NCBI GenBank assembly: GCA_943353835.1
Contig: CALRBA010000003.1
Span: 1 to 61,730 of the forward strand
Reading direction: 5' to 3'
DNA length: 61,730 nt
Source: Candidatus Nomurabacteria bacterium
GTDB taxonomy: Bacteria > Patescibacteriota > Minisyncoccia > Phycocordibacterales > Phycocordibacteraceae
The position numbers and the translations under genes were made by a program. A model generated the notes under the pieces. That model worked only from the letters and a program-made list of their open reading frames with translations. It made no database searches and was not told the DNA's origin. Of this stretch, positions 1-25,978 are shown piece by piece. Within the stretch, counting starts at the first letter, position 1. The number at the start of each line of letters is the position of its first letter.

Positions 1-2015
1 GCTTTCTTTTTGCCTTTCTCAGAAACAAGGTCAGACCTTTGGGAACTTGCATTAAGGTCTGACCTTGTTTCTGGTGGCACTTCAGGGAGCGCCATCTCCA
101 CATACGGCCCGAAGCGTCCCGTCTTTATATAAACAGCGTCGCCGGTCTCGGGGTGTACACCGATTGGCTCGTCACTTTTCAGCTCCGCACCGTCTTCCAT
201 GCGTGCGCCGAGACAATCAGGATACTTCTTACAGCTCATGAAGACACCTCCGCGTCCGAGCTTATTCTCCATCGCACTACCACAGAGCGGGCATGGAAAT
301 TCTTTGGGAGCATCGCCGAGCGACGTCGCCTTCGGAAGTTTATCTTTCGCTCGCACAGCCTTTTCAAATGGTCCATAAAATTCGGTTAATGTCTCTTTAT
401 ATCCGCGTTCTCCGCGAGCAATCTCGTCAAGTTTGTCCTCCATCTCCGCGGTGAATGTGTCGCTCACATACTCTGGAAAATTTTCTTCCAGCCAGCCCGA
501 GACGACCATGCCTGTGGCCGTCGGCTTCAGCGCTCTCGCAAGTTTTTCTACATATCCGCGGTCTTGGATGGTCTTCATAATAGAGGCGTAGGTTGATGGA
601 CGTCCAATTCCTCTTTTTTCCAATTCTTTAATCAATCCTGCTTCGGTATAACGATTTGGCGGTTCGGTCTGTTTCTCTTCAGCACCAAGCGAGAGGAGGT
701 CGAGCGGGTCGCCACTGGCAAGCTTCGGGAGCTCTACATCCTCGCCTCGCGACTTCGTATCCAGCGCGAGCCAGCCAGCGAAGAGGACGCGGGAGCCGTT
801 GGCAGTAAACAAGGGGATTTCTTTATTTGCTTTCGCGACGACGTTCGTGCGCATAATCTTCGCAGGAGACATCTGAGAGGCGAGGGCGCGTATACGGATA
901 AGTTCGTAGAGTTGCACTTCGTCCGGAGTAGAACCCGCGCGTTTATGAGAAGGGTCAGTGGGGCGGACGGCTTCGTGCGCCTCCTGTGCGTTCTTACTCG
1001 TCGTCTTATACGCGCGCACCTGCAGATACTCTTTACCAAACTCTTTTTCTACAGCACTCGCTATCTTCGCGACCGCTTCGGTGCCGAGATTCACCGAATC
1101 GGTGCGCATATAGGTGATATGTCCCGCCTCATATAATTTTTGTGCTGCGCGCATTGTGCGTGAAGGTGCGAATCCGAGTCTCGTTGAAGCAGTCTGCTGA
1201 AGCGTTGAAGTCGTAAATGGAGGACGAGGATTACGGTCTTCGGCTCTTTCTGTAACATCGCCGACTTTCCATACGGCACTCCTGCCGGCTTGTACAATTC
1301 TTTCAGCTTCTTCATATGTGGCAGGCTGTTCTGTGCAGGTTGTAGACAAGGTTAAACCTTGAGAATTCTGACCAAGGTTTAACCTTGTCTTAAAGAGTGC
1401 AGAGAGGACGAAATAGGTGACGGGTATAAAAGCTTTAATTTCTCGCTCGCGTTCCGCCAGGATGCGAAGAGCAGGAGATTGTACACGCCCAGCTGATAAA
1501 CCGTAGCGCACTTTTTTCCAAATCAAACCGGACAAGTCATAACCGACGATGCGGTCTAATACGCGCCGCGCTTCTTGCGCACGGCGCAAATTCTCGTCTA
1601 TGTTTCTCGGATGCGCTATTGCATCTTTTATCGCATCCTCTGTTATCTCGTGGTAAACAACACGTTTAATCGGTTTGGTTTTTATTTTTTGAGATTTGGA
1701 ATTTCCGAGTTCATCTCTGATGATCTCGGCGATGTGCCACGCAATAGCCTCTCCCTCACGGTCTGGGTCGGTCGCGAGATATATCTCGTCGGCCTTCTCT
1801 ACAGAGCGCTGTATCTTCTCTATCACTTCGCGTTTATCAGCGGAAATAACGTAGTGCGGAATAAACCCGCCTTCAATATCCACCGCGTCTTTATTACTCT
1901 TTGGTAAGTCGCGCACATGCCCGACAGAAGCAATGACATCGTAGTCTTTACCTAAATATTTCCCAATCGTGCGTGCCTTTGTAGGGGACTCTACAATGAG
2001 TAATCGTTTCATCAT
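1..2015 (-). CDS. topA: DNA topoisomerase I, partial (C-terminus runs off the left edge)
   Basis: Minus-strand translation starts M(M)KRLLIVESPTKARTIGKYLGKDYDVIASVGHVRDL and continues with ATDPDREGEAIAWHIAE, YGLSAGRVQSPALRILAERE, ITYMRTDS, GIGRPSTYASI and a C-terminal CPLCG..C..YPDC zinc finger. Not in the ORF track because it has no stop in the window. Confidence 0.95.
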   Translation of the reverse strand, partial: MMKRLLIVESPTKARTIGKYLGKDYDVIASVGHVRDLPKSNKDAVDIEGGFIPHYVISADKREVIEKIQRSVEKADEIYLATDPDREGEAIAWHIAEIIRDELGNSKSQKIKTKPIKRVVYHEITEDAIKDAIAHPRNIDENLRRAQEARRVLDRIVGYDLSGLIWKKVRYGLSAGRVQSPALRILAEREREIKAFIPVTYFVLSALFKTRLNLGQNSQGLTLSTTCTEQPATYEEAERIVQAGRSAVWKVGDVTERAEDRNPRPPFTTSTLQQTASTRLGFAPSRTMRAAQKLYEAGHITYMRTDSVNLGTEAVAKIASAVEKEFGKEYLQVRAYKTTSKNAQEAHEAVRPTDPSHKRAGSTPDEVQLYELIRIRALASQMSPAKIMRTNVVAKANKEIPLFTANGSRVLFAGWLALDTKSRGEDVELPKLASGDPLDLLSLGAEEKQTEPPNRYTEAGLIKELEKRGIGRPSTYASIMKTIQDRGYVEKLARALKPTATGMVVSGWLEENFPEYVSDTFTAEMEDKLDEIARGERGYKETLTEFYGPFEKAVRAKDKLPKATSLGDAPKEFPCPLCGSAMENKLGRGGVFMSCKKYPDCLGARMEDGAELKSDEPIGVHPETGDAVYIKTGRFGPYVEMALPEVPPETRSDLNASSQRSDLVSEKGKKK
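21..72. repeat. Palindromic element, ACAAGGT family, copy 1 (inside topA)
   Basis: agaaacaaggtcagacctt - 14 nt - aaggtctgaccttgtttct; 19-bp perfect arms. Confidence 0.95.
1344..1390. repeat. Palindromic element, ACAAGGT family, copy 2 (inside topA)
   Basis: agacaaggttaaaccttg - 11 nt - caaggtttaaccttgtct; 18-bp perfect arms. Confidence 0.95.
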
Positions 2016-2071
2016 TTGTTAACTCATAGCGCGTATACCTATATATGGTCAAGTGCGCATTGTTCGCTGGC

Positions 2072-2842
2072 TCACTCAACTTCCACTCGTATCGGGTGAT
2101 GGTCGGAGCCGATTCGGTCTGAGAGAACCTCGGCATTTTTTATCGTAAACGAATGCGAGACGAGGATGTGGTCGAGCTGACTTCCGCCGAACGAATGAGT
2201 CACCTTCCCGCGAAGCGGGTTTATGAGCTCGTGCTCAACGAAGCGTCGTTCAATATGTGTACGTTCGCGTCGATATAGGAAAGCATCACTCACCCGACCG
2301 CCGAGAAGCCAACTCAATATCGAGACATGTGGTGCCTCGATGGTATTGAAGTCACCGCAGACGATAGTGGGAAGGCTCGGGTCGCGTTCAGCCAGAGACT
2401 GTTCAAATTCGCGAAGTCGTTTCTCAGGTGTGGCGAGGACGAGATGCAGATTGAATATGCGTACTGTGCCCGCGGACGTGACTACGTCAGCGAACAGCGC
2501 CGCCCGATTCGTTCGCTTCGACCATCCGAGAGGGCTTAACAGCCACACGAGAGCCTTCGCTCGCCACGGGAGTTCGGGCCAATAATCCGGGAAGGGTATT
2601 CTCTTGCTTTGTACAATCTCATTACGCGATAGAATAACTATCCTATGAGTGCTCGGTACCCTGAACAAATGGTTCGCATCCACCGTTTCCACGAGGTGGT
2701 AGGGAAGCGAGTGGAGTCGCTCGAGAAACGTTTCAGGAACTTCTTGCAAACAGAAAATGTCAAAATCGCTTTCAGAGATAAATTTAAACGCACGGTCCAG
2801 TTCGCGGTTACGGAAGAGAATGTTCCAAGAATAGATTTTCAT
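2072..2842 (-). CDS. Endonuclease/exonuclease/phosphatase family protein
   Basis: MKIYSWNILFRN..FDIFCLQEV..IVCGDFNTIEAP..QLDHILVS..SDHHPIRVEVE; EEP catalytic motifs. Confidence 0.85.
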   Translation of the reverse strand: MKIYSWNILFRNRELDRAFKFISESDFDIFCLQEVPETFLERLHSLPYHLVETVDANHLFRVPSTHRIVILSRNEIVQSKRIPFPDYWPELPWRAKALVWLLSPLGWSKRTNRAALFADVVTSAGTVRIFNLHLVLATPEKRLREFEQSLAERDPSLPTIVCGDFNTIEAPHVSILSWLLGGRVSDAFLYRRERTHIERRFVEHELINPLRGKVTHSFGGSQLDHILVSHSFTIKNAEVLSDRIGSDHHPIRVEVE

Positions 2843-2848
2843 ACTTAT

Positions 2849-3706
2849 TTATACGCGATGCCATGCGCTGAATTCTTCTTTAATAAGCCCGCGCAACTCT
2901 AGTGCTACAAGGGCGGTTAATACTTCGCCAGCGGCGCCGGAGGCGCCGCGGAGAATCTCATCGCGAGTCATCGGCTCGTCCAACATATTCCAGATAACGA
3001 GTTCAGCGTCTTCAAGGTCGCTTGGCGCGACACCTATTGAAGCGCTTTCGCGTGGTGCGATATGTAACGCTTCAAGAATGTGTAGAGGGTCGCTGATAAG
3101 CGCGGCACCGAGACGGATAAAGAGATGTGAACCGAAGGAGTGCGGGTCAGCAATACGATGCGGGATGCAGAGCAAGTCGCGATTGTATTCACCAGCGAGA
3201 CGCGCGGTAATAAGCGTGCCAGACTTCTGTCCTGCTTCAATAATCAACACAGCGTCGGAGAGTCCGACCATAATCCTGTTGCGCTCGGGGAAAAAATGTA
3301 CACGCGAGAGAGTATCGGGAGAATATTCGGAAAGAAATCCTCCCCCGGCTTTTAAAATTTCTTTCGCGAACGCGCGATTACTCCTCGGGTAGAGTACATC
3401 ATCGCCGAGTCCAGAGCCAGGCACCACGAGTGTATGTAAACCAGCAGATAACGCTGCTTTATGCGCACAAGTATCGGTGCCGAGCGCTAGGCCAGAGACA
3501 ATAGAGATAGGGTAGCCGGCGAGGCCTGTAATTAACTTCTCACACGCCTCTTGTCCGTAGCGCGTCATCGCACGGCTACCCACGACGGTTAGCATCTTAT
3601 GTCCAGAGGGAGGCAATTCACCACGTACCCACAACCTCTTCGGTGGCTGTGGTATCTCCAATAGTTGTGCAGGCCATTCACTCTTCTCCAGTTCTCGAAT
3701 CTCCAT
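2849..3706 (-). CDS. dprA: DNA-processing protein DprA
   Basis: LTVVGSRAMTRYGQEA..IVSGLALGTDTCAHKAAL..VVPGSGLGDDVLYPRSNRAF..LSEYSP..FPERNRIMVGLSDAVLIIEAGQKSGTLITA. Confidence 0.93.
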   Translation of the reverse strand: MEIRELEKSEWPAQLLEIPQPPKRLWVRGELPPSGHKMLTVVGSRAMTRYGQEACEKLITGLAGYPISIVSGLALGTDTCAHKAALSAGLHTLVVPGSGLGDDVLYPRSNRAFAKEILKAGGGFLSEYSPDTLSRVHFFPERNRIMVGLSDAVLIIEAGQKSGTLITARLAGEYNRDLLCIPHRIADPHSFGSHLFIRLGAALISDPLHILEALHIAPRESASIGVAPSDLEDAELVIWNMLDEPMTRDEILRGASGAAGEVLTALVALELRGLIKEEFSAWHRV

Positions 3707-3729
3707 AGGTGCAGTATACTATTCAATAT

Positions 3730-4998
3730 ATGTTGGATATACATTTCATACGCGAGAATGCGGACATCGTTAAGGAGGGGGCGGCGAAGAAGCATATTGA
3801 GGTTGACCTTGACCGTCTCATCAAGGTTGATGACGAGCGCAAGCTACTGCGACAAGAGCTCGATGCAAAGAAGGCAGAGCAGAATCGGCGGAGCAATGAG
3901 ATTCAGATTTTGAAGGATGTTGAGCGTGAGAAAGTTATTGAGCAGATGCAACATCTTAAGTCGGGCATGGCGGAGAGCGAAGAGAAATTGAAGACGGTGA
4001 TGGTTGAATGGCAACAGCTAATGCTCACCGTTCCGAATATTCCGGATATGTCGGTACCGGATGGCGAAAGCGATGCGGATAACATGGAAGTAAAGAAGTG
4101 GGGCGAGCCAACGGCGTTCGGGTTTACTTCAAAAGGGCACATTGAATTAATGCTTGCGCTTGATATGGCCGATTTCGAACGAGGCGCAAAAGTCGCTGGA
4201 TTTCGTGGCTACTTCCTCAAGGGTGATGGCGTGCTTCTCACAAATGCCATCTGGCAACTCGCACTCAAATTTTTCACCGCAAAAGGATTTACACCGATGA
4301 TTGTTCCCTCGCTTGTGCGACGAGAGGCTTTGATTGGTACAGGATTCCTTCCGCAAAGCGAAGATGATCTTTATAAAGTGCAGGATGAACTGTACTTGGC
4401 TGGTACAGGAGAAGTTGCGACGATGGGCTACCACATGGATGAGGTGCTTACGAAGGAAGAGCTGCCAAAAAAGTATCTTGCGTTCTCACCGTGCTTCCGT
4501 CGCGAGATCGGTGCTCATGGTAAGGATGTGAAAGGTCTCATTCGTGTTCACGAGTTTTATAAGTTCGAACAAGTGATTCTATGTGAAGCTAGTCACGAAG
4601 GCTCGGTCAAGTACCATGAGGAACTGACACGCAACAGCGAAGAGTTTATTGAACTTTTGAATATCCCGTACCACACTGTTGTCAATTGTGGCGGTGACCT
4701 AGGCTTGGGTCAGGTGAAGAAGTATGACATCGAGCTTTGGGTACCAGGAGAACAGACATATCGCGAAATCGGCTCCGCATCATATTTTCACGATTTTCAG
4801 ACGCGCCGGTTGAATATTCGATATAAGGATGCGGAAGGGAAGCTTCAATACGCACATTCGCTCAATAACACTGCAATCCCGATACCGCGCATTCTGGTTT
4901 CTATAATTGAGAACTATCAACAGGCTGACGGTACCATTAAAGTACCCGACGCTTTAGTGCCCTATGTTGGAAAGAGCGTTATCGGGGGAGCGCAGTAA
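3730..4998 (+). CDS. serS: Serine--tRNA ligase (start set at 3730, downstream of TATACT)
   Basis: MLDIHFIRENADIVKEGAAKKHIEVDLDRLI..; class II motifs FSPCFRREIGAHGKDVKGLIRVHEFYKFEQ and ReIGSASYFHDFQTRRLNIRYK. Confidence 0.95.
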   Translation: MLDIHFIRENADIVKEGAAKKHIEVDLDRLIKVDDERKLLRQELDAKKAEQNRRSNEIQILKDVEREKVIEQMQHLKSGMAESEEKLKTVMVEWQQLMLTVPNIPDMSVPDGESDADNMEVKKWGEPTAFGFTSKGHIELMLALDMADFERGAKVAGFRGYFLKGDGVLLTNAIWQLALKFFTAKGFTPMIVPSLVRREALIGTGFLPQSEDDLYKVQDELYLAGTGEVATMGYHMDEVLTKEELPKKYLAFSPCFRREIGAHGKDVKGLIRVHEFYKFEQVILCEASHEGSVKYHEELTRNSEEFIELLNIPYHTVVNCGGDLGLGQVKKYDIELWVPGEQTYREIGSASYFHDFQTRRLNIRYKDAEGKLQYAHSLNNTAIPIPRILVSIIENYQQADGTIKVPDALVPYVGKSVIGGAQ

Positions 4999-5803
4999 CG
5001 AGCGGCTCGCAGTGCGGCGCCGTACTCGGCGCCGAATGGGTCTCATATTTTTTTTAATCCTGCTCCTGCTCCTGCTTACTGCAACTATTTACGGGCTTCG
5101 GCAGAGTGCTGCGCGCATTTCACACATAGAAGTTATTAGTGTGGACGCATCGCTTTCTGGATATGCGACAAGCAGGATGCAAGGAAACTATTTCGGTATT
5201 ATTCCACGTGATTCCATATTTTTCTTCCCCGAAGAGAGCATTCGCGCAGACATACTTTCATCTCATAATGACATTGTCGCAGTTTCAATATTAAGAAACG
5301 GCTTTACTGGAATTTTAATAAAAGCGGATTACCGCGTTCCTGTCGCGCGTTGGTGTGGGGACGCAACAAGGTTCAACCTTGAGGATTCGGATTTAAGGTT
5401 GAACCTTGTTGCGGACTGTTATTTTTTTGATACTGACGGATTAATATATTCGGCGGCTACAACAACGCAACCGATAAATTCTTTTGTTGTTTATAATGCG
5501 TTACCCGTCGACGATGACCCGATTGGTTCAACTCTCCCATTTGCCAAAGATTTTCCCGCAATTTTTGACTTTGCACGGCAATTATCAACCCTTGGTTCGC
5601 AGGTAGTTTCTGTCGCCATTCATGACGGAGAAGTGGACAACCGTCTCGCGAGTGGTACGCGTGTCACCTATGTTCTTGGTCGCGAACAAGTCGCCTTCAC
5701 CGCACTTGTTTCTGCTCGCAACAACTTCAATCTAGCTGACGGCTCGGTAGACTATGTTGACCTGCGCTTTGACGGTAAAGTGTATGTGAAGCCGAAGAAG
5801 TGA
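4964..5803 (+). CDS. FtsQ/POTRA-like single-pass membrane protein (overlaps serS 3' end; start may be 5036)
   Basis: Basic N-terminus, TM LIFFLILLLLLLTATIYGL, then HIEVISVDASLSGYATSRMQGNYFGIIPRDSIFFFPEESIRADILSSHNDIVAVSI; topology and motif like FtsQ. Confidence 0.55.
   Translation: MLERALSGERSNERLAVRRRTRRRMGLIFFLILLLLLLTATIYGLRQSAARISHIEVISVDASLSGYATSRMQGNYFGIIPRDSIFFFPEESIRADILSSHNDIVAVSILRNGFTGILIKADYRVPVARWCGDATRFNLEDSDLRLNLVADCYFFDTDGLIYSAATTTQPINSFVVYNALPVDDDPIGSTLPFAKDFPAIFDFARQLSTLGSQVVSVAIHDGEVDNRLASGTRVTYVLGREQVAFTALVSARNNFNLADGSVDYVDLRFDGKVYVKPKK
5362..5413. repeat. Palindromic element, ACAAGGT family, copy 3 (inside ftsQ-like gene)
   Basis: cgcaacaaggttcaacctt gaggattcggattt aaggttgaaccttgttgcg; 19-bp perfect arms. 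Confidence 0.95.
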
Positions 5804-5815
5804 TACCGTTCATAT

Positions 5816-6847
5816 ATGTTCTGGAATAACTTGAAGAAACCATTCTTTGTGATGGCGCCGATGGCGGATGTCACTGATGTCGCTTTTCGAGCGTTGGTAG
5901 CCGCGCGTGGGAAGCCAGATGTCTTCTGGACCGAATTTGTCTCGGCAGATGGGCTCTACCACACCCGCGAGATAGCGAAAATGAAGGATGACGAGAATCC
6001 GCTGATGCGCGATTTATTAAAAGAGGAAGGGCAGAAGCCTATTGTTGCGCAGATTTTTTCAAACAAGCCAGAGATGATTGCTTATGCGACGAAGCTTGTT
6101 GCCGAACTTGGCTTCAATGGCGTGGATATCAATATGGGCTGTCCTGATAGAACGATAGAGAAGCAAGGTTGTGGTTCGGCGATGATCAAGACGCCCGAGC
6201 TTTCGCGCGAGATTATCCGCGCGGCGAAGGCGGCGAGTAGCCTACCCGTCTCGGTGAAGACGCGCATCGGGTACAACAAAGAATCGTTAGATGAATGGCT
6301 CCCAGCGCTTTTGTCCGCGAACCCTTCTGCAATAACGTTGCATCTACGGACAAGAAAAGAGATGTCGCTCGTACCCGCTGATTGGGAACAAATGAAAAAA
6401 GCGGTAGAAATCAGGAATCGCGTAAATCCAAGCGTACTCCTCATCGGCAATGGCGATGTGCAAAACCTTGAAGATGCGGGAGTGAAAGCCAGAGAGACCG
6501 GTTGCGATGGAATCATGCTCGGCCGCGCGATGTTCGGCAACCCCTGGGTCTTCGCGGGCCGCAAATCGGAGGACACGCCACTTGCAGAGAAACTCGCAGC
6601 GCTTCTTGAACTCGCACACGGTTTTGAAAAAATCTCGCCGCCGAAGAACTTCGCCATTTTGAAAAAGCACATCAAAGCATTCGTCACTGGCTTCGCTGGC
6701 GCCGCCGAACTCCGTGCGCAACTCATGTCAGCCGAAAACGCTACCGAACTTGAGGCAATTACGCAAAACAAGGTTCAATCCCGCTATAGCGGGATTGAAC
6801 CTTGTTTTGCGGTATACTCTCGCAATGGCGCATCAGAGTTTATATAG
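5816..6847 (+). CDS. dus: tRNA-dihydrouridine synthase
   Basis: VMAPMADVTDVAFR..EFVSADGL..PIVAQIFSNKPE..GFNGVDINMGCPDRTIEKQGCGSAMIKTPEL..PVSVKTRIGY..LIGNGDVQ..GCDGIMLGRAMFGNPWVF. The C-terminus is read through a 50-bp palindrome. Confidence 0.93.
   Translation: MFWNNLKKPFFVMAPMADVTDVAFRALVAARGKPDVFWTEFVSADGLYHTREIAKMKDDENPLMRDLLKEEGQKPIVAQIFSNKPEMIAYATKLVAELGFNGVDINMGCPDRTIEKQGCGSAMIKTPELSREIIRAAKAASSLPVSVKTRIGYNKESLDEWLPALLSANPSAITLHLRTRKEMSLVPADWEQMKKAVEIRNRVNPSVLLIGNGDVQNLEDAGVKARETGCDGIMLGRAMFGNPWVFAGRKSEDTPLAEKLAALLELAHGFEKISPPKNFAILKKHIKAFVTGFAGAAELRAQLMSAENATELEAITQNKVQSRYSGIEPCFAVYSRNGASEFI
6762..6811. repeat. 50-bp perfect palindrome, related arms, at dus 3' end / dnaX promoter
   Basis: cgcaaaacaaggttcaatcccgctatagcgggattgaaccttgttttgcg. 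Confidence 0.95.
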
Positions 6848-7952
6848 AATACATCGCCCGGCGATCTTTGCGGAGGTAGTGGGGCAGGAGCAGGTGACGA
6901 AGCCATTAGAAGAGACGGCGAAATCTAAGAAGATTGGGCACGCGTATCTCTTCGCCGGCAGTCGCGGATTAGGGAAAACCTCGGTCGCGCGCATCTTTGC
7001 TGACGCCATTGGTTGTAAAGAAAACGATTTACATGAGATAGATGCGGCTAGTAACAACAGTGTTGATGCTATGCGTGCACTCATCGAAGGCGTTTACACC
7101 CTTCCGTTTGAATCCCCATACAAGGTCTATATTCTTGACGAGGTGCACATGCTTTCTAAGAGCGCATGGAATGCATTTTTGAAAACGCTTGAAGAGCCAC
7201 CCGCGCATGCAGTTTTTATTTTGGCAACAACGGAACTTGAAAAAGTTCCGGAAACGGTGCAGTCGCGCTGTCAGGTTTTTGAATTTAAAAAGCCATCAAG
7301 GCGAGGCCTTGCTGAAGTTGCTGTGAGTGTGGCTAAGAAAGAAGGATACACACTCGCACCAGACGCCGCCGAGCTTATCGCCATGCTCGCGGAAGGCTCG
7401 TACCGCGACGCGCTTTCTGTTTTACAAAAAGTTTTTGCCGTAGCAGCCCCGACGTTAAAAGTCGGGGCTCCGACCAAAAGCGTCGGAGACGTGAAAACTT
7501 TGTCGCGCGAGGTTGTTGAGGCAGCTACAGGAGCACCAAAAAGAGAACAGGTTCACGCGCTTATATCCGCGCTCGCCACGGATCCGCCGGCTGGCGGACG
7601 CGGTAAAGCGCTTGAAGCGATAGAGAAGGCGGCGAAGTCCGGCGCCGATATGAAGCTTTTCTTGGAGCTAGTGCTTGAAGCTTTGCGCGCTACTCTCCTC
7701 ATTCGCTACGCGCCCGAGCTCCACACCTCTCTCCAGAGCGAGCTCGGCGCGGACGAATTTTCTGTACTTGAATCCATGTCGGGAAGTAGTACGTCCCGAC
7801 ATGAAAAAGACCTATCTGCGCAGGCAGGCATTACTCATGTGACAATGTTGGCGTTTCTAAACGCCACCGAGCGCATCCGCTACGCGCCCATCCCCGCGCT
7901 TCCGCTCGAGCTCGCCGTCCTCGAACTTTTTCCTGACGAATCAGACAAGTAG
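6825..7952 (+). CDS. dnaX: DNA polymerase III subunit gamma/tau
   Basis: MAHQSLYRIHRPAIFAEVVGQEQVTKPLEETAKSKKIGHAYLFAGSRGLGKTSVARIFADAIGC..LDEVHMLSKSAWNAFLKTLEEPPAHAVFILATTE. ORF opens at 6714 but the conserved start is 6825. Confidence 0.94.
   Translation: MAHQSLYRIHRPAIFAEVVGQEQVTKPLEETAKSKKIGHAYLFAGSRGLGKTSVARIFADAIGCKENDLHEIDAASNNSVDAMRALIEGVYTLPFESPYKVYILDEVHMLSKSAWNAFLKTLEEPPAHAVFILATTELEKVPETVQSRCQVFEFKKPSRRGLAEVAVSVAKKEGYTLAPDAAELIAMLAEGSYRDALSVLQKVFAVAAPTLKVGAPTKSVGDVKTLSREVVEAATGAPKREQVHALISALATDPPAGGRGKALEAIEKAAKSGADMKLFLELVLEALRATLLIRYAPELHTSLQSELGADEFSVLESMSGSSTSRHEKDLSAQAGITHVTMLAFLNATERIRYAPIPALPLELAVLELFPDESDK
7297..7317. repeat. Dispersed 21-mer with hairpin caaggc-gag-gccttg, in dnaX
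   Basis: caaggcgaggccttgctgaag, identical to 58634..58654 in tyrS. Confidence 0.9.
7445..7488. repeat. Two adjacent hairpins in dnaX
   Basis: agccccgac gttaaaa gtcggggct overlapping ctccgac caaaagc gtcggag. Confidence 0.85.
7775..7803. repeat. Hairpin in dnaX
   Basis: catgtcggga agtagtacg tcccgacatg. Confidence 0.9.
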
Positions 7953-7969
7953 TGGTAGAGTTTATCTAT

Positions 7970-8040
7970 TGCCCGATCGTCTAATGGTAGGACAGCGGCC
8001 TTTGAAGCCGTTAATTGGGGTTCGAATCCCTGTCGGGCAG
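7970..8040 (+). tRNA. tRNA-Gln(TTG)
   Basis: tgcccgatcgtctaatggtaggacagcggcctttgaagccgttaattggggttcgaatccctgtcgggcag; acceptor tgcccga/tcgggca, anticodon loop ctTTGaa. Confidence 0.93.
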
Positions 8041-8103
8041 CCCGAATAAAACTAGCGGGGAAATGGGGACAGTCACGATTAAAAAGTTCGTAAAAATACA
8101 AAA

Positions 8104-12357: not shown

Positions 12358-15126
12358 ATGGAATCAACACCTAAGTTGTCTACACCGGAAGAGGAGCTTG
12401 CGTATTTGCGCGAGCAGGTGATTCGCAAAGAAGCGGAGCTTCTTGCGAATCATGCGCAAGGAGCCGAACAGGCTACGATTATTTCAGAGACGATACATGA
12501 ACACCACTCCGCCACAGCCGAGATTCTTGCACCCGAATATAAAATAAGCGAAGCGACCGCGAACAGCGAAGCTGAGGCAATACTCGCCGAGCTTAATCTC
12601 GGCGGTAGCGAGCAAGCGATAAAGAGTCTGCAACAGACTCTTGAGGAAAAGGGAATTAAGAACGCATTATCAGTGATGGAAAAGCTCCATGACCCGCATA
12701 TTGCCGACGACTTTCATCGGTACCTCGTGCGCTATATCGCGGTTGGTCTTCTCGCTGCCGGTATTGACGAGAAATCTCCGCGTTTCAAGGCGCTTCGGAT
12801 GACGCTCTATGAGATCGCGCTTCCCGAACCGAAGGGTGTTGAATCAGGCGGACGCACGAAGACACTCAAGGAGCTCATTTCCGGCATGGAACAATTATAT
12901 TCTGGACTTCTCTCTATCGGGGGCGCAGAGAGCGGAGAACCGGTGTATTACGCGCTTGAACTAGCAGTACCCGCCGATAATCCGGAGCTCCAATTTTATG
13001 CCGCCATCCCCAACAATAAAAAGAATCTTTTTGAAAAACAAATGCTCGCTGTATTTCCCGATGCGCATCTCGTACCACAACCATATGACTACAATGTATT
13101 CGCCTCCGGTGGCACATCTCTCGCGTCAACGGCGCGATTCGCAGAGAATTCGGCATTGCCTTTGAAGGATTACACAGATTTTGATTACGACCCGTTGAAC
13201 GCGATTACGAACGCATTCGCCAAGATTGAGCACACAGGCGAAGGGGCGGCGCTACAAATAATTATTGAACCGCGTGCCGAGCGATATGTGAAGCATTATA
13301 AAAAAATTCTGCAGGCATTGCGTAAGGGCGAGAAACACTCTTCGGCATTTAACACGCCGGAGACCGCATTCGGCGAGTTCGCGCGCGATATCGGCAAGAC
13401 GCTTTTTTCCGGCAAGCCCAAGGACGTACAGAAAGCCAAGGAGGCCGAGACACGCCAAATTGAAGCGAACAAGACATACATAGAACAGGTGGAGAAGAAG
13501 ATAGCCGCAACAATTGTCGGCGCGACGATCAGGCTTGTATCGTCGTCGGTAGACGCGCATAAGGCAGGGCAGATATTGGACGAACTAGAATCCGCGTTCA
13601 ATCAGTTCGGGAACACACAAGGGAATCATCTTGAATTTAAACGCCTACCTGCCGGCAGACAGGTGCAAGACGTTCTGGAAGATTTTTCATTCCGTTTGCC
13701 GGATTCTTCTGCGCTTCCGCTCTCTCTGCGCGAGCTTACGACGATGTATCACTTCCCACCGTCTGGCATCGCGAGTTCTCCGCACTTGAAGCAGGCGCGC
13801 TTTACCCACGCACCCGCGCCCATAGGGCTCTCGCAGACCGGAATATTGCTCGGTACCAACACATACCGCAGTACACAAACTAAAATTCATCTTGAACAGG
13901 AGGACCGCCTTCGACATCTCTACATCATCGGTCAGACCGGTACCGGTAAGTCCGGACTTATGAAGTCGATGATTATTCAGGATATTAAAAACGGCGATGG
14001 ATGTTGTTTCATTGACCCGCACGGCACCGATATCTTGGACATTCTCGGTTCAGTACCACCGGAGCGTTACAAAGATGTCATTTATTTTGACCCCGCCGAC
14101 CTCTCGCGCCCTTTCTCGCTCAACTTCTTGGAGTACGATATTTCGCGTCCCGAACAAAAGACTTTTATTGTGAACGAGCTCTTGATGATTTTTAAACGAC
14201 TATACGGCGACGTGCCCGAGAGTATGGGGCCCGCCTTTGAACAATACTTCCGCAACGCGACCCTCCTCGTGATGGAGGACCCGGCGAGCGGGTCAACCAT
14301 TCTTGACATCGCGCGTGTGCTCTCAAACAAAGAGTTCCGAGAACAAAAGCTCGCAAAGAGTATGAATCCGGTCATAAACCAGTTTTGGAATGAAATAGCG
14401 ACGAAGGCAGGTGGCGATGCATCACTTGAAAATATAGTTCCATATATTACCAACAAGTTTGACGACTTTACCGCGAACGATTTCATTCGCCCTATTGTCG
14501 GCCAACAAGAGTCGTCATTTAAATTCCGTGAGGTGATGGACACCAAGAAGATACTTCTTATCAATCTCTCCAAGGGTCGCTTGGGCGAGAAGAATGCGAA
14601 CCTGCTCGGCCTTATAGTCGTAGGCAAGCTCTTTATGGCGGCACTCTCGCGCGCCGATTCTCCGAGAGTTGCGCACGCGCCGTTCTATCTTTATATAGAC
14701 GAGTTCCAGAACGTAACTACCGACTCAATTCCAGGCATTCTATCCGAGGCGCGTAAGTATAAGCTCTCACTTTCTATGGCGCACCAGTTCTTGAGCCAGA
14801 TACAAGAGAAGACCCGTGACGCGGTCTTTGGCAATGTGGGCAATATGGCGATATTCCGCGTTGGCGAAGAGGATGGTGAATTCTTCGCCAAACAATTCGC
14901 GCCGGTCTTTACGGCGCTGGACTTCGTCAATCTGGAATTTAGAAATGCATATGTGAAAATTCTCGCGGGTGGCGTACCGCAGAAGCCGTTTGATATGAAG
15001 ACGCCAGATTTACCTCCGGTAAATCTGGCGCAGGTGGACGACCTAATTCACCTCTCCTCCCTCACCTACGGTCGCGACCGTGCTACAGTTGAAAATATGA
15101 TACGCGAGCGCTATCTTTCGCATTAA
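12358..15126 (+). CDS. VirD4/TraD-like (HerA/FtsK superfamily) ATPase
   Basis: HLYIIGQTGTGKSGLMKSMIIQDIKNGDGCCFIDPHGTDILDILGSVPPERYKDVIYFDPAD (Walker A) and PFYLYIDEFQNVTTDSIPGILSEARKYKLSLSMAHQFLSQI (Walker B/sensor). Confidence 0.85.
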   Translation: MESTPKLSTPEEELAYLREQVIRKEAELLANHAQGAEQATIISETIHEHHSATAEILAPEYKISEATANSEAEAILAELNLGGSEQAIKSLQQTLEEKGIKNALSVMEKLHDPHIADDFHRYLVRYIAVGLLAAGIDEKSPRFKALRMTLYEIALPEPKGVESGGRTKTLKELISGMEQLYSGLLSIGGAESGEPVYYALELAVPADNPELQFYAAIPNNKKNLFEKQMLAVFPDAHLVPQPYDYNVFASGGTSLASTARFAENSALPLKDYTDFDYDPLNAITNAFAKIEHTGEGAALQIIIEPRAERYVKHYKKILQALRKGEKHSSAFNTPETAFGEFARDIGKTLFSGKPKDVQKAKEAETRQIEANKTYIEQVEKKIAATIVGATIRLVSSSVDAHKAGQILDELESAFNQFGNTQGNHLEFKRLPAGRQVQDVLEDFSFRLPDSSALPLSLRELTTMYHFPPSGIASSPHLKQARFTHAPAPIGLSQTGILLGTNTYRSTQTKIHLEQEDRLRHLYIIGQTGTGKSGLMKSMIIQDIKNGDGCCFIDPHGTDILDILGSVPPERYKDVIYFDPADLSRPFSLNFLEYDISRPEQKTFIVNELLMIFKRLYGDVPESMGPAFEQYFRNATLLVMEDPASGSTILDIARVLSNKEFREQKLAKSMNPVINQFWNEIATKAGGDASLENIVPYITNKFDDFTANDFIRPIVGQQESSFKFREVMDTKKILLINLSKGRLGEKNANLLGLIVVGKLFMAALSRADSPRVAHAPFYLYIDEFQNVTTDSIPGILSEARKYKLSLSMAHQFLSQIQEKTRDAVFGNVGNMAIFRVGEEDGEFFAKQFAPVFTALDFVNLEFRNAYVKILAGGVPQKPFDMKTPDLPPVNLAQVDDLIHLSSLTYGRDRATVENMIRERYLSH
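15002..15030. repeat. Hairpin near the 3' end of the VirD4-like gene
   Basis: cgccagatttacc tcc ggtaaatctggcg; 13-bp perfect arms. Confidence 0.9.
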
Positions 15127-17921: not shown

Positions 17922-17933
17922 AGTAAATAAAAA

Positions 17934-17965
17934 AATGGGCGCGAACCGTGAGGTTTGCGCCCATT
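17934..17965. terminator. Shared terminator between convergent genes
   Basis: aatgggcgcgaacc gtga ggtttgcgcccatt, flanked by aaaaaaa. Confidence 0.75.
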
Positions 17966-17975
17966 GCCGTATCTC

Positions 17976-18521: not shown

Positions 18522-18636
18522 AGACCTCCATTTTGGGGCCGTTTCAGAATTGAAGCGGTGGAACCCCGTCTAAATGCAAGGATACTCTACAATTATGATT
18601 TGTCAATACTGGTCGAGTAAGGTACGTTATAGAGTA

Positions 18637-19881
18637 ATGAGTGCTATTAATTTTAAAATAGAACAGCGCGCGCTTGGTTACCGAGAGCGCGCGGGCACAT
18701 TGACGACGCCACATGGCATTATCCGTACGCCAGCCTTCGCCCCGGTGGGGACAAAGGCCTCGGTGAAGGGCATTTTGCCGGAACAACTTGTGAAGCTCGG
18801 TGCTGAAGTGGTGCTCGCGAACACCTACCATCTCTATCTGCAGCCTGGAGAAAACACAGTGAAAAATGCCGGCGGGCTGGGGAAATTTATGGGTTGGCAG
18901 GGCCCCACGATGACCGATTCGGGCGGTTTCCAAGTCTTCTCGCTTGGCGCTGCGTTCGGCAAAAAAATCTCAAAATTTACAAGGTTAAACCTTGTCGAAA
19001 ACAAGCCTGTAAATACGCCGTCAATTTACGATGAAGAAATAGCAAGTCAGCACGGTCAACTCGCAATAATAGATGATGAGGGAGTATCGTTCACTTCGCA
19101 CGTAGACGGCTCGCTTCACCGCTTCACGCCAGAGCGCTCGGTGGAGATTCAACACGCGCTCGGTGCCGACATCTTCTTCGCCTTTGACGAATGTACGGCG
19201 CCGACCGAGCCATACGAGTATCAGAAAGAGGCGATGGAGCGTACACATCGTTGGGCGGAACGTAGCTTGAAAACGCATCGGCAGAATATTGACGCGAACA
19301 AGAAGCAAGCGATTTTCGGTATCGCACAGGGAGGACAGTTTGACGACCTTCGTCGGCAGAGTGCTAAGGCTATTGCTGAAATGGGGTTTGACGGATTTGG
19401 ATTAGGAGGCTCGTTCAGCAAGAAATACGGCGATGATTCTCTCCAGTCGGCGCTCGCGATGTTGAAGGAGTTGCCAGAGAATATGCCAGTGCACGGCCTC
19501 GGCATTGGCGAGCCCTGCGACTTGCTCGCAGCTATTTCTGCAGGTGTAGACATCTTTGACTGTGTCGCCGCCACGCGCATCGGTCGCCACAGTTCTCTCT
19601 ATACGATGCGAGGCATCATTCACTTACGCAATGGAGAATATCGTAACGATTTTTCCCCGCTCGACCCCGAGCTAGCAATAGCAGGGACGGAGACCTTCAC
19701 GCGCGCCTATGTCTCGCATCTCGTGCGTTCGGGCGAAATGCTCGGGTCAATCATCGTTTCCATGCACAATGTCGGCTTTATTTTGCAACTCGTTGCCGGC
19801 GCGCGTCAAGCAATTCTTGATGGACGTTTTGACGACTATCGTGCAGACTTCGTTCGCGACTACTATCATGGCCAATTTTAA
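18637..19881 (+). CDS. tgt: tRNA-guanine(34) transglycosylase
   Basis: LTTPHGIIRTPAFAPVGTKASVKGI..VLANTYHLYLQPG..GPTMTDSGGFQVFSLG..FGIAQGGQFDDLRRQSA..MPVHGLGIGEP..DCVAATRIGRH. Confidence 0.95.
   Translation: MSAINFKIEQRALGYRERAGTLTTPHGIIRTPAFAPVGTKASVKGILPEQLVKLGAEVVLANTYHLYLQPGENTVKNAGGLGKFMGWQGPTMTDSGGFQVFSLGAAFGKKISKFTRLNLVENKPVNTPSIYDEEIASQHGQLAIIDDEGVSFTSHVDGSLHRFTPERSVEIQHALGADIFFAFDECTAPTEPYEYQKEAMERTHRWAERSLKTHRQNIDANKKQAIFGIAQGGQFDDLRRQSAKAIAEMGFDGFGLGGSFSKKYGDDSLQSALAMLKELPENMPVHGLGIGEPCDLLAAISAGVDIFDCVAATRIGRHSSLYTMRGIIHLRNGEYRNDFSPLDPELAIAGTETFTRAYVSHLVRSGEMLGSIIVSMHNVGFILQLVAGARQAILDGRFDDYRADFVRDYYHGQF
18975..19014. repeat. Degenerate ACAAGGT-family element in tgt
   Basis: atttacaaggttaaaccttgtcgaaaacaagcctgtaaat; outer arms imperfect, inner acaaggtt-a-aaccttgt perfect. 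Confidence 0.65.
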
Positions 19882-21904
19882 ATTACACCTCCCATTTCAG
19901 CCGGCGGGGGACCAGCCGGCTGCGATACAGAAACTTGAAGAAGGGCTCAAAAGAGGTCTGCGACATCAGACGCTCTTTGGTGTGACAGGCTCTGGCAAAA
20001 CTTTTACCGTCGCGAACGTCATCGCCAAGAATGATAAGGCGACGCTTGTCCTCGCGCACAACAAGACACTCGCGGCTCAGCTCGCACAGGAGTATCGTGA
20101 ATTTTTTCCCGAGAATGCGGTGCATTACTTCGTTTCGTACTACGACTATTATCAGCCGGAAGCATATATCGCGCACTCAGACACTTATATAGAGAAGGAG
20201 GCGATGATAAACGCGGAGATAGATAGACTTCGTCACGCCGCCACACAAGCATTATTGACTCGTAAAGATGTAATTATAGTCGCCTCGGTCTCTGCTATCT
20301 ACGGCCTCGGCTCGCCGGAGGAATATGAAAAGGTACATGTGAAGATAGAGAAGGGCGCGAGGGACGATCGAGCGGCGCTTATACGCAAGCTTGTCAATAT
20401 ATATTTTGAACGCACGAACGCAGACCTCAATCCCGGACAGTTTCGTGCTATCGGCAATTCTCTGGAGTTTATGCCAGTTAATGAGCGCGTTATCTACCGT
20501 GTCGTCTTCGTGGGCGACGAAGTCGCACATATAGAAAAACTTGACCCAGTATCGCGTGCAAAATTATTAGAACCAAAAAACGTTTTCGTATTTCCCGCGA
20601 AGCACTTCATCACGAATGAAGAAGAGCGACTACGCGCGATTGAAGATATTAAATTAGAACTTGAAGAACAGCTCGCGAAGTTTAAGAGAGAAGAAAAGCC
20701 GTTAGAAGCCGAGCGCCTGAAACGTCGCACACTTCACGACCTAGCGCTTATTCGCGAACTAGGCTACACAAGTGGGATAGAGAATTATTCCCGCCACTTT
20801 GACGGTCGTAAGCCTGGCGAGCCGCCATTCACACTCCTCTCCTATTTCCCGAAGAACTTTTTAACAATAATAGACGAGTCGCATGTCACCGTTCCGCAGA
20901 TAGGCGGGATGTATGCAGGTGATAAGTCGCGTAAAGATGTGCTCGTGGAGTACGGCTTCCGCCTCCCGTCAGCGCGCGACAATCGCCCGCTTCGCTTTGA
21001 AGAGTTTGAAGAGCGCGTGGGGCAAGTCTTGTACACGAGTGCGACGCCCGGGCCGTACGAGAAGGCCCATTCGGAACAAATTGTAGAACAAGTTATTCGC
21101 CCGACTGGTCTTATTGACCCCGAGCTCACGGTGCGCAGAGTTAGTGAGACGGGAGGGTACAAGGGACAGGTTGTAGATTTTATTGCTGAAGCAGAGATAG
21201 TGATTAAGCGCGGTGGCCGCGCGCTCGCAACAACACTGACAAAACAAATGGCAGAAGACTTGTCTTCGTTTCTTAAAGAAAAGGGAATCAAAGCAGAGTA
21301 TTTACATTCAGATATAAAAACAATTGAGCGCATTGATATTCTCACCAACTTCAGAAAGGGCGAGTTTGATATCCTCGTTGGCGTAAATCTGCTCCGCGAA
21401 GGGCTTGATTTGCCTGAAGTTGAATTGGTGGGAATTCTTGACGCTGACAAAGAAGGGTTCTTGCGTAGCGAGACCTCACTCATCCAGACTATCGGGCGCG
21501 CCGCGCGCAATGTCCTCGGCCGAGTCATCCTCTATGCCGACAATATGACTGGCTCACTTGACAAGGCGATAAGCGAGACGAATCGCCGCCGCGCGCTCCA
21601 AGAGGCGTACAACACGAAGCACGGCATCACCCCGATGACGATTAAAAAGGAGATTCACGACATCGCCGCCTCAATGCGCACCGAGCACCAGCGCACGGTC
21701 GACGAGCTCCTTGTCTTGGACACGCTTGCATACAAAAATGACCCCAAGGAGTTTATTAAAAGAAAGAGAGAAGAGATGTCAGAAGCAGTGGAGCAATTAG
21801 ACTTTGAAACCGCCGCGCTCATCCGCGATGAGATATATAAGCTAGAGGGCACGGGTCCCAAAGCTCGTAAACCCCGCACCCGTAAACCGCTTTCGGGTTC
21901 TTAA
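19868..21904 (+). CDS. uvrB: Excinuclease ABC subunit B
   Basis: [126 protein letters not shown] opens at 19709. Confidence 0.97.
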
Positions 21905-21963
21905 ATAGAGTGATATAGTTACACCGTACCTGCCCCGCCACGGGCAGGAAATTTACATAGAAA

Positions 21964-24669
21964 ATGAAGAAAACAACAGCTAAAGAAGAGCATAAACCCG
22001 CCTCGCCGAAGACGTCGAGTCGAGGCGGGCACAAACACGGGAGCGACTGGCTCACCGTGAAGGGTGCGCGCACCCATAATTTGAAAAATATTGATGTCGC
22101 GATGCCGCGCGGAGCGATGACGGTTATCACCGGCCTCTCTGGCTCTGGAAAGTCCTCACTCGCCTTCGATACTATATTTGCTGAAGGACAGCGTCGGTAC
22201 GTGGAGTCGCTCTCTGCCTATGCACGCCAATTCCTAAACCAAATGGCGAAGCCAGATGTTGATGAAATATCTGGTTTGTCGCCAGCCATTTCTATAGACC
22301 AGAAGAGTCGTTCTAACAATCCGCGTTCCACGGTCGCCACGGTTACCGAGATTTATGATTACCTGCGCGTGCTCTACGCGCGCGCGGGCCAGCCCTATTG
22401 TATCCATCATGATGTTCCCATCGTGCGGCTTTCTAAAGAAGAAATGATCAAACTTGTCTTTCAGCGAGTGGAGGCAGGGAGCATGAGCAGTGCGCATGGA
22501 CCTGAAGTACTCGGCGTAGCAGTTGATAAACGCATAGTCACTATCTACGCGCCGATGGTTGTTGGGCGGAAGGGCGAGTACTACCAGCTGCTCTATGATC
22601 TCTTGAGCAAAGGCTACGAGAAGGTGGTGGTAGATGGGAAAGTGCATTCGCTCCGCGAAAAGATAGTCATGGAGCGTAATAAACGTCATGACATTGATGC
22701 GGTTGTTGATTCTATTTTCGTTTCTGAATTCGCACGCTCTACGCAGAGTGCTCGCGAACGACTCTCCGAGGCGCTAGAACTTGCATTAAAGGAAGCTGGA
22801 GGACTGGTTAAGATTAAGCACGCCGACGGTACGACAGAAACACTTTCTTCTAAATTTATTTGTCCCGAAGATGGCGCGTCTTTCCCAGAAGTTGAGCCAC
22901 GGCTCTTCTCATTCAACTCGCCGTATGGCGCGTGCCCGGCCTGTCATGGGCTCGGGACCGAGTCGCTCTTCTCAGAAAAAGTGTGTCAAGTATGTAAAGG
23001 GAAACGACTTCGCCCTGAAGCATTGAGAGTTTACCTCAAAAGCACGAAGCACGAAGCACGAAGCACAAAATTCGAAAGCCCTCTCGGGGCAAGCATCGTG
23101 GATTTTACGAATATGTCTATACGAGATGCTAAAAACTTTATTGATGACATTGAATTGTCGGAGATGAAATACGATATCGCGATGCCGATTTTGAAAGAGA
23201 TAGACGCGAGACTAACATTTATGTTGAACGTCGGCTTGGATTATTTAACGCTGAATCGCTCAGCGGCGACACTCTCTGGAGGTGAAGCGCAGAGAATTAG
23301 GCTCGCGTCTCAGCTCGGGAGCGGGCTCACCGGCGCGCTCTATGTGCTCGACGAGCCGACGATAGGTCTGCACCAGCGCGATAATGCTCGGCTCATCAAG
23401 ACCCTTCTCATATTAAAAGAGCTCGGCAACACGATTATCGTCGTGGAGCATGACGAGGACACTATTTATTCTGCCGATTACCTAGTGGACATCGGGCCGG
23501 GCGCCGGTATCCATGGAGGAGAAGTTGTTGCTTCCGGATGGCTGGATGATTTGTTGACGACGAAAGAAAATGAAACAGGCTCTGTCACCCTTTCATATTT
23601 GCGTGGAGAAAAAGAAATTCCAATTCCCGAGGAGCGTCGCACAGGAGAGAGAGGATGGTTAAAAGTTCGTGGCGCGACACTGCACAATCTCGTGAATCAG
23701 AATATTGACGTCCCCTTGGGGAAACTCGTCTGCATTACGGGCGTCTCGGGAAGCGGGAAGTCAACATTCCTCTACGACATTCTGCACCGCAATATTTCGT
23801 CACGTTTTGCGCGCCGCGAGGTGAAGCTTGAATATATCGCATCGCTCACCGGCACCGAGTATGTCAGCCGCGCGGTTCTCATAGACCAATCGCCAATAGG
23901 GCGCACCCCGCGCTCTAATCCGGCGACGTACACAGGCGCTTTCACGCACATCCGCGACCTCTTCGCGGCGACTGCCGAGGCGCGCGCGAGAGGATGGAAG
24001 CCTGGGCGGTTCTCATTCAACGTCGCTGGCGGTCGCTGTGAGGCCTGTCAGGGCAACGGTTCTATCGCGGTAGAGATGCACTTTCTCCCGACCGTGTACG
24101 TCACATGTGATATCTGCATCGGTAAGCGTTTTATGAAAGAAACATTGGAAATTACTTTCCGCGGTAAGAATATTTACGAGGTGCTCCAGATGACGATAGA
24201 AGAAGCGGAAAAGTTTTTTGGAGACATTCCAGCTATCAATGATCGTCTCATGAGCTTGAATTCAACAGGACTTCAATATTTAACACTTGGTCAGAGCGCG
24301 ACGACACTCTCCGGCGGAGAAGCACAGCGCGTGAAGATCGCAAGTGAGCTCTATCGTTCTCAAACAATGAAAACCATTTATCTGCTTGATGAGCCGACTG
24401 TAGGTTTACATTATGAAGATGTGGTGAAGCTTATTGAGATTCTACAAGAACTGGTGCGTAGAGGTAACACAGTGGTTGTCATTGAACACAATCTGGATGT
24501 GATAAAGAGCTCTGATTATATTATTGACTTCGGTCCAGAGGGCGGAGAGGGTGGCGGGAAGGTTATCGCGAAGGGCACGCCGGAGGAAGTCGCCGAGACA
24601 GACGGTTCTTACACGGGCGAATATCTAGTTAAGGTGTTAAAACGCCATGAAAAAAAGCGAATTAAGTAA
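21964..24669 (+). CDS. uvrA: Excinuclease ABC subunit A
   Basis: [123 protein letters not shown]. Confidence 0.97.
23041..23066. repeat. 7-bp tandem repeat inside uvrA
   Basis: (agcacga)x3 + agcac, translated [10 protein letters not shown]. Confidence 0.85.
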
Positions 24670-25978
24670 ATTCAATCTGCCGGATGTACCTGGGGTGTAT
24701 CTCTTTAAGAAAGGGAGGAAGGTGTTGTATGTGGGTAAGGCAACGTCGCTACGCGACCGAGTACGCTCCTACTTTGATGATGATTTGATCGCGACACGCG
24801 GCCCGCGTATCGTGGATATGGTGACGAAGTCCGATAGGGTCGCGCACGAGCCGACGCCGACTGTGCTAGAGGCACTCGTGCGCGAAGCGGCGCTCATTAA
24901 GAAATATCTGCCGAAGGCGAATGTGGACGGGAAGGACGATAAGACTTTTCTTTATGCAGTAATAACTAAAGAAAATATTCCGCGCGTGCTTGTCGTGCGC
25001 GGGAAGGATATTAATTTTAAACAGCTTACGGCTAACAGCTTGCAGCTGACAGGGCCTGTTCGCAACCAGCAAACTGCCACCTGCAAGCTGCGAGCGATAT
25101 ACGGACCGTTTCCTTCAGGCGCGCAGTTAAAAGAGGGTTTGCGTCTCGTACGGCGCATTTTTCCGTTCTTTGATACGGCGAAGCCGGTTGTAGCAACGGG
25201 TAAACATCATCAGGCAAAAATAGAATTTAACAGTCAGATTAATCAATATCCGCGAAGTTCCATATTCGCGCCTATAGGCCAGAATATGGAACAACTGAAA
25301 ATGTATCGGAAATCAATACGAAAGGTAATGCTATTTCTTTCAGGACGCGGTAAAGAGTTGCGACGGAGACTTGAAAAGGAAATGCGCGAGGCCGCGCTAG
25401 AAGAGCGGTTTGAAGATGCAGCCGAAACGCGTCGCGAGCTCTTCGCGCTGGACCATATTCAAGACGTCGCGCTCATTAAGGACGAAAATCTTGCGCAACA
25501 AGGTTCGACCTTAAATCCGAATTCCCAAGGCCGAACCTTGTTGCGCATTGAGGCGTATGATACGGCGCATCTCTCTGGGACGAACGCAATTGGCGTGATG
25601 ACGGTTGTCGTAGACGGCGCGCCGGTAAAGAAAGAATACAGAACGTTTCGTATCAGGGGTGTGAAGAAGAATGATGATATCGCGTCGTTAAAAGAAATTC
25701 TCTCACGCCGACTAAATCATCAAGAGTGGCAGTTCCCGAAGGTGATAGTAGTAGACGGCGGTAAGACGCAAAAGAAGGCGGCCGAGAGTGTACTTAAAGA
25801 AGTTGGAGTTATCATTCCTGTTGTCGCCGTTGTAAAAGACGAACGTCACCGCCCGCGCGAAGTCATCGGCGCGCGTTCCGCTGGCATTTCCGAGATGGAC
25901 GCCGTCCTCGCCAACTCCGAGGCGCACCGCTTCTCCCTCGCGCAACACCGTCGTGCCCGTTCTCGTTTGGTATACTGA
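24647..25978 (+). CDS. uvrC: Excinuclease ABC subunit C
   Basis: LPDVPGVYLFKKGRKVLYVGKATSLRDRVRSYF (GIY-YIG) .. RIEAYDTAHLSGTNAIGVMTVVVDG..KVIVVDGGKTQKKAA. Confidence 0.93.
   Translation: MKKSELSKFNLPDVPGVYLFKKGRKVLYVGKATSLRDRVRSYFDDDLIATRGPRIVDMVTKSDRVAHEPTPTVLEALVREAALIKKYLPKANVDGKDDKTFLYAVITKENIPRVLVVRGKDINFKQLTANSLQLTGPVRNQQTATCKLRAIYGPFPSGAQLKEGLRLVRRIFPFFDTAKPVVATGKHHQAKIEFNSQINQYPRSSIFAPIGQNMEQLKMYRKSIRKVMLFLSGRGKELRRRLEKEMREAALEERFEDAAETRRELFALDHIQDVALIKDENLAQQGSTLNPNSQGRTLLRIEAYDTAHLSGTNAIGVMTVVVDGAPVKKEYRTFRIRGVKKNDDIASLKEILSRRLNHQEWQFPKVIVVDGGKTQKKAAESVLKEVGVIIPVVAVVKDERHRPREVIGARSAGISEMDAVLANSEAHRFSLAQHRRARSRLVY
25492..25547. repeat. Palindromic element, ACAAGGT family, in uvrC
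   Basis: tgcgcaacaaggttcgacctt aaatccgaattccc aaggccgaaccttgttgcgca; 20/21 arm pairs; loop reverse complement gggaattcggattt resembles the copy 3 loop. Confidence 0.95.

Follow-up and report, generated by a model that had tools for sequence, protein, structure and literature searches.

Why do unrelated genes on one bacterial contig carry near-perfect palindromes inside their open reading frames (ORFs), and what spreads these palindromes? The question is raised by contig CALRBA010000003.1 of Candidatus Nomurabacteria bacterium (assembly GCA_943353835.1), whose 61,730 nucleotides, here called the window, are the entire contig C3 of genome G000 (534 kb, 98.5% complete). An original prediction, made from the letters of the window, had described palindromes dispersed in topA, an ftsQ-like ORF, uvrC and tgt and at dus/dnaX, and had likened them to the Rickettsia palindromic elements (RPEs). 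From a comparison of 69 genomes in all, including congeners, we conclude that the palindromes likely form a low-copy, largely intragenic family resembling REPINs (doublets of repetitive extragenic palindromes, REPs), moved by cognate REP-associated tyrosine transposases (RAYTs). A RAYT is the likely spreader because the hairpin elements within genes match the palindromes that flank the RAYT gene.

Palindrome doublets in the window

Inverted repeats with arms of 18-25 nt, 95-100% complementary, lie at 20-73, 1344-1390, 5362-5413, 6762-6811 and 25492-25547. With an arm score of at least 18 and a loop of at most 14, seven strong hairpins were found in the window (these five palindromes and two terminator-like ones) against none in 60 dinucleotide shuffles of it, so that the palindromes are real, as originally described; the same goes for the loops, for the peptides read in frame and for the reversed ftsQ-like copy. 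The unit consists of two self-palindromes of 13-17 bp in mirror order around a conserved loop of 13-14 nt, with the consensus ACAAGGT NNN ACCTTGT, twice and mirrored. The self-palindrome AAGGTNNNACCTT is present in each arm, which makes the unit a palindrome doublet, and copies outside the window follow a common plan of AAACAAGGTTnAACCTT, a 13-14 nt loop near AAnTCCGAATTCCC, and the mirror arm. Outer arms vary from copy to copy, yet are mostly perfectly complementary within each copy. A covariance model (R1) was built from the copies, the E-values of those used for building it being circular. The palindromes and their host genes are as follows.

3 to 2012, minus strand: host gene topA, DNA topoisomerase I, truncated by the contig end; Pfam Topoisom_bac and Toprim
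20 to 73, minus strand: doublet in topA site 1 (C-terminal linker); arms 20 nt, loop 14 nt; peptide ETRSDLNASSQRSDLVS
1344 to 1390, minus strand: doublet in topA site 2; arms 18 nt; peptide KTRLNLGQNSQGLTLS
4964 to 5803, plus strand: ftsQ-like host ORF, named as in the original prediction; without a Pfam domain
5362 to 5413, plus strand: doublet in the ftsQ-like ORF, loop reversed relative to the uvrC copy; peptide ATRFNLEDSDLRLNLVA
5816 to 6847, plus strand: host gene dus, tRNA dihydrouridine synthase; Pfam Dus
6762 to 6811, no strand assigned: 50-bp perfect palindrome at the 3' end of dus; covariance-model E 6.7e-8; inner part TCCCGCTATAGCGGGA
18574 to 19881, plus strand: host gene tgt; Pfam TGT
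18979 to 18995, plus strand: solo palindrome in tgt, one intact half-unit; in-frame peptide TRLNLV
24647 to 25978, plus strand: host gene uvrC; Pfam UvrC_RNaseH_dom
25492 to 25547, plus strand: doublet in uvrC; peptide AQQGSTLNPNSQGRTLLR

The palindrome at dus had been called related to the others, which holds for its outer ACAAGGTTCAA arms and for nothing beyond them. The tgt copy, thought to be degenerate, is a single intact palindrome, ACAAGGTTAAACCTTGT. No consistent target-site duplication was seen when the flanks were inspected by eye, and an Rfam scan of the window found tRNAs alone. Two perfect terminator-type hairpins (A-rich upstream, T-rich downstream) at 27482-27531 and 34220-34259 are outside the family.

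Copies in the genome and the genus

A search of the genome and its relatives with a covariance model, as proposed with the original prediction, brought the long copies of G000 to nine: five in the window and four at C2:10680, C2:44581, C5:11893 and C5:14833. Two of the nine are intergenic, one of them immediately 3' of the lepA stop codon, and the genome also holds a few short single palindromes (solo half-copies). Further copies were found in the genus, where the distribution by covariance model and patterns is patchy, with many copies in G013, G041, G049 and G054 (about 15-20 each in G013 and G041) and no detected copy in many congeners. Exact matches to CAAGGTNNNACCTTG number 12 in G000 and 25 in G013, compared with one match per strand over the 69 genomes for the reversed pattern used as a control; the zero matches to the pattern TTGGNNGNCCNNCCAA are uninformative, as it does not represent the ACTTGG palindrome family. 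Each genome holds about 10-25 palindromes, a low copy number next to the tens to hundreds published for REPs.

Most copies are in coding frames. Among 62 distinct doublets, collected mostly from the genus, 43 lie inside ORFs of at least 140 codons, although some such ORFs may be spurious; the hosts include topA, uvrA/B/C, dus, eno, def, dnaG, tsaD and leuS. A Pfam domain, mostly of a housekeeping protein, was found in 19 of the 20 host proteins scanned (Def-Fmt, enolase, LepA, UvrB, UvrA, DnaG, HhH-GPD glycosylase, Dus, TsaD, LeuRS, AlaRS, a class II synthetase with an HGTP anticodon domain, RecG and others). The frames used give peptides such as QGSTLNPNSQGRTL or TRFDLENSDLRSNL, and the remaining consensus frames contain stop codons. 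Judging from the open frames and the conserved flanking protein, the inserts are probably translated.

The long copies are clustered, five of the nine in G000 lying within about 26 kb (window 1-25547); in G013, seven long copies lie in 37 kb (C5:96524-133132), a region whose genes (topA, dus, uvrA/B/C) are the same. On contig C2 of G000, locus L001 (1275-2642) is a single ORF that fuses peptide deformylase and methionyl-tRNA formyltransferase domains, which are opposing activities of one pathway.

A RAYT gene bracketed by the same palindromes

Y1 ORFs, mostly of 215-290 codons, were found in 45 of the 69 genomes by a Pfam Y1_Tnp search. The RAYT gene of G000 (C5:36361-37041) sits between two R1 matches, and ACAAGGTTTAACCTTGT stands upstream of it and again overlaps its stop. 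The homologue in G013, 57% identical, is flanked on both sides by CCAAGGTCGAACCTTGG and also contains it in frame. The protein of about 227 amino acids (aa) matches Pfam Y1_Tnp (PF01797) above the cut-off, its sole NCBIfam match is the REP-associated tyrosine transposase, and near-invariant residues in the family are the HUH motif N82-H83-F-H85 and Y143. The best fold match of its AlphaFold model (pLDDT 91) is 4er8, the structure of a RAYT in complex with a REP hairpin; a profile search against PDB sequences gave no match, the fold search alone matching. The HUH motif, the single tyrosine and the Y1 fold are those expected of a RAYT. The protein shares the HUH motif, the conserved tyrosine and the predicted fold (2xm3 and 2vjv, both among the top matches) with the IS200/IS605 TnpA (Y1 HUH) transposases, but it is longer and is bracketed by palindromes that are also found alone elsewhere.

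This arrangement is not peculiar to one genome. One palindrome type stands on both sides, adjoining start and stop, in 25 of 48 RAYT loci, and these palindromes belong to many different sequence families. The centre triplets of the dispersed palindromes are those of the local RAYT in G013 (25/28), G100 (5/5) and G040 (9/10), the last having two RAYTs and two triplets. Three RAYT families coexist in G013, and the dispersed palindromes that belong to each are often in frame (uvrB, uvrC, tgt, def). The two further palindromes are TATCGAAGTCTGACTTCGATA, dispersed and in frame in uvrC, and GGGTGGACACCTAGTGTCCACCC in uvrB, tgt and def, so that UvrB and UvrC of G013 each carry inserts of two RAYT families. 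Over the genomes, a palindrome is present in 32 of 41 with a RAYT and in 4 of 28 without one (Fisher p 1.5e-7, ignoring kinship).

Within the RAYT ORFs L148, L154, L176, L179, L180, L183 and L062, the palindrome that flanks the gene recurs in frame once or twice (e.g. KLGSPTSK read twice). Upstream of a RAYT in G006 (C22), L185 is a 59-bp perfect palindrome with an outer part unlike the other copies there, again a case of variable but perfect outer arms. In the window, just 5' of grpE (53366-53388), there is a palindrome TTACATAGGACAGTCCTATGTAA of the type flanking the RAYTs of G013 and G014; a RAYT of this type was not detected in G000.

Occupied, empty and shared sites

Orthologues without inserts, the variety of host genes and the patchy presence in the genus bear out a dispersed palindromic element standing in frame in unrelated genes. 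At TopA site 2, the insert is present in G000, G003, G013, G019 and G049, and the other 25 of the 30 aligned orthologues are empty (KSKxGD). The net gain there is only about 8 residues from a palindrome of 47 nt, which indicates that host residues were replaced. Site 1 is also filled in G049, G013 and G106, two of which have the loop reversed. The AlphaFold prediction for TopA, made with 24 congeners, reached a pLDDT of 57, too poor to place the insert in the fold. The internal site of Dus is filled in G013, G041 and G054 (15-17 additional residues) and empty in 29 of 32; it is empty in G000, but the C-terminus of the G000 protein is about 26 residues longer through the 6762-6811 palindrome. 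UvrB of G013 has an insert of 18 residues relative to PDB 3uwx, directly before the DESH motif. The insert in UvrC amounts to about 9 additional residues at a variable loop, with host residues replaced. The clean insertion of 16-19 aa that had been expected thus describes UvrB and, roughly, Dus, and fails for TopA site 2 and UvrC. Further copies exist in the genome, as noted above, and the same residues were not found over non-palindromic DNA in unrelated Patescibacteria.

In G013 the UvrC loop has a copy with the loop inverted, and in other species it has perfect palindromes that are unrelated. Where records carry a name, relatives of this UvrC come from Candidatus Kaiserbacteria and other Paceibacterota, which places the host among the Patescibacteria of that group. 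In three species (L312, L327 and L347) the same loop is occupied by a near-uninterrupted palindrome of 45-49 bp, GTGGACATCGGATATCCAC...GTGGATATCCGATGTCCAC, with the peptide WTSDIHGGRGYPMST. The uvrC gene of the window contains a second, unrelated imperfect palindrome (25031-25095, peptide QLTANSLQLTGP...NQQTATCKL), and in other species its loop holds R1 elements or the palindrome of another RAYT. Other in-frame repeats of the window are a tandem GAAGCACGAAGCACGAAGCAC of another family in uvrA (23038-23076) and CCTACCTGCCGGCAGACAGG (13644-13663, peptide LPAGRQVQ) in a 922-codon ORF (12358-15126), which looks like a further in-frame palindrome family.

By our own tabulation, 12 sites are filled in at least two species: topA 1, topA 2, uvrC, dus, ftsQ, def, eno, a ComF-like phosphoribosyltransferase, HhH-GPD, dnaG, tsaD and a large ORF (L062/L066). 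The reading frame of the arms is identical at all 12, and loop orientation varies between species at six (topA 1, uvrC, dus, ftsQ, ComF-like and HhH-GPD). The ftsQ-like site is also filled in G041, with a different loop, and the ComF-like and tsaD sites have solo palindromes in G000 versus doublets in other genomes. This pattern would be explained by inversion of the loop in place together with in-frame deletion between half-units; the alternative is repeated insertion at permissive, perhaps sequence-fixed, sites. In UvrC (RIEAYD) and enolase (RATASVPSG), the 3' outer arm contains the conserved arginine codon CGC of the host, which suggests that the 5' outer arm was copied from a host-derived 3' arm. 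If so, the 3' outer arm would be the host's conserved codon and the 5' outer arm its inverse.

Relation to known systems

Descriptions of REPs usually place them outside genes. In REPINs, two inverted REPs are joined by a spacer (Bertels and Rainey 2011, PMC3116915), and RAYTs are REP-flanked and coevolve with REPs (Nunvar 2010, PMC2817692). The REP/REPIN-RAYT system is the closest kind that we identified, since genes for RAYT-type transposases here lie between copies of the dispersed palindromes: as in that system, there is an inverted palindrome doublet with a short spacer and a predicted hairpin, the RAYT is flanked by the same palindromes (G000, G013 and the loci counted above), palindrome and RAYT covary between genomes, and there are several RAYT/palindrome families per genome. 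The differences are that the copies here are mostly intragenic and in frame rather than mainly extragenic, that a genome has far fewer of them than the hundreds of REPINs, that they are perfect short palindromes without the GTAG/GTGG head, and that the host belongs to Patescibacteria, with RAYTs of only remote similarity (scores under the NCBIfam cut-off). Since structure and RAYT linkage agree and foot tag and extragenic location do not, we set the family apart from plain REPINs.

Intragenic GTAG and CGTC REPs lie wholly within ORFs, and their dimers add 20-30 residues; many of them sit in genes for DNA repair and replication (uvrA and uvrB, for example) and some in tRNA synthetase genes, with one same-site case, recB, in related species (Di Nocera 2013, PMC3733652). 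The location within ORFs, the repair-gene and synthetase hosts and the shared sites in related species are similar here, but the intragenic REPs are a minority of a mainly intergenic family, whereas here coding copies are the majority and have cognate RAYTs.

Ogata, in 2000, reportedly described in-frame coding palindromes in Rickettsia. RPEs are dispersed palindromes of about 150 bp, in frame in unrelated housekeeping genes and giving a similar peptide (Ogata 2000, summarised in PMC10969869). The comparison with RPEs stands as a description of behaviour, since the palindromes here are likewise dispersed, inserted in frame into unrelated protein genes and similar in peptide. Compared by description and not by sequence, they differ from RPEs in length (about 40-62 nt versus about 150 bp), in the nested doublet with solo halves and in the RAYT linkage.

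What spreads the palindromes

We infer that the palindromes are mobile. In our preferred reading, a cognate single-strand (HUH/Y1) RAYT, with its gene bracketed by the same palindrome, would spread the family by recognising and cutting the single-stranded hairpin and inserting it elsewhere. Most insertions into genes would be lost, and the survivors would be in tolerant loops or linkers, with an open frame and about 8-20 added residues. Because each half is itself palindromic, the halves could serve both as inverted repeats, allowing inversion of the loop, and as direct repeats with a spacing of 27 nt (with the 14-nt loop), allowing an in-frame deletion of nine codons that leaves a solo half.

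Several observations weigh against a spread by RAYTs. The sole NCBIfam match of the protein, REP_Tyr_transpos (REP-associated tyrosine transposase, NF047646), scores 26-50 bits, below the curated cut-off of 80. A matching palindrome pair is lacking at 23 of the 48 RAYT loci. Just 8 of 17 dispersed centre triplets in G000 match its RAYT (TAA), none of four sampled triplets match in G106, and no dispersed copies exist of the palindrome belonging to the second G000 RAYT. The RAYT was undetected in four genomes with palindromes; the correlation between the two is uncorrected for kinship, and a corrected test had three usable pairs and no power. Among 45 doublets, the commonest foot is AAAA, and none of the twelve commonest feet is a GTAG, GTGG or CGTC tag.

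The occurrence of copies in some genomes without a RAYT would suit a selfish coding palindrome of the RPE type, spread perhaps by template-switching replication or recombination, with RAYT genes as mere insertion targets; the in-frame palindromes inside RAYT ORFs show that RAYT genes do receive copies. To our knowledge, no RPE mobiliser is known. The CGTC REP class, including rickettsial RPE-4/6, was reported without a dedicated transposase (PMC3733652). Random insertion, however, would not repeatedly bracket one gene family, and many unrelated palindrome families flank RAYT genes on both sides, by start and stop; we consider this explanation improbable. Rather unlikely, in our view, are ancient single insertions inherited vertically and lost in most lineages without recent mobility, which would be compatible with a long-ago RAYT origin. 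The single reading frame of the arms at every multi-species site, and the same register and orientation of all long copies at TopA site 2, are as expected from such insertions, but the five genomes filled at TopA site 2 require five changes on the TopA+Dus tree, of which supported branches force three or more. Also, G044, the closest to G000 on this tree, has no insert at either topA site, loop orientation differs at half of the shared sites, and loop type differs at ftsQ and topA site 1.

It is very improbable that the palindromes are selected, non-mobile RNA or DNA elements (terminators, mRNA stabilisers, DNA-uptake or protein-binding sites). Such roles have been assigned to REPs of other bacteria, and many noncoding copies are terminator-like, with outer arms A-rich upstream and T-rich downstream (AAAACAAGG...CCTTGTTTT), e.g. 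right after lepA. Most copies, however, stand in the reading frames of unrelated genes, and a terminator there would do damage; they are absent from many congeners, with orthologous sites empty, and their number per genome is far below that of uptake signals. A DNA-uptake signal was dropped as a candidate, single AAGGTT/AACCTT words being not abundant and copies few.

Implications

Intragenic REPs have been known since 2013; what this family adds is a new phylum, the habit of lying in coding sequence and, for palindromes read in frame, a transposase that matches them. In the literature searched, we found no paper that links RAYTs or coding palindromes to Patescibacteria. As palindromes and a matching transposase co-occur, with several independent pairs in one genome, the mover of coding palindromes becomes testable with purified proteins. 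A bolder and more doubtful possibility is that these are transposase-moved elements specialised for protein interiors, with hairpins that keep several frames open, loops that flip in place and outer arms that copy the host flank, and that successive RAYT families add or rewrite loops in the same essential Patescibacteria proteins. The RAYT-moved family would account for some of the unusual loop insertions that mark proteins of the reduced Patescibacteria genomes, and it is a caution for users of Patescibacteria protein structures and phylogenies.

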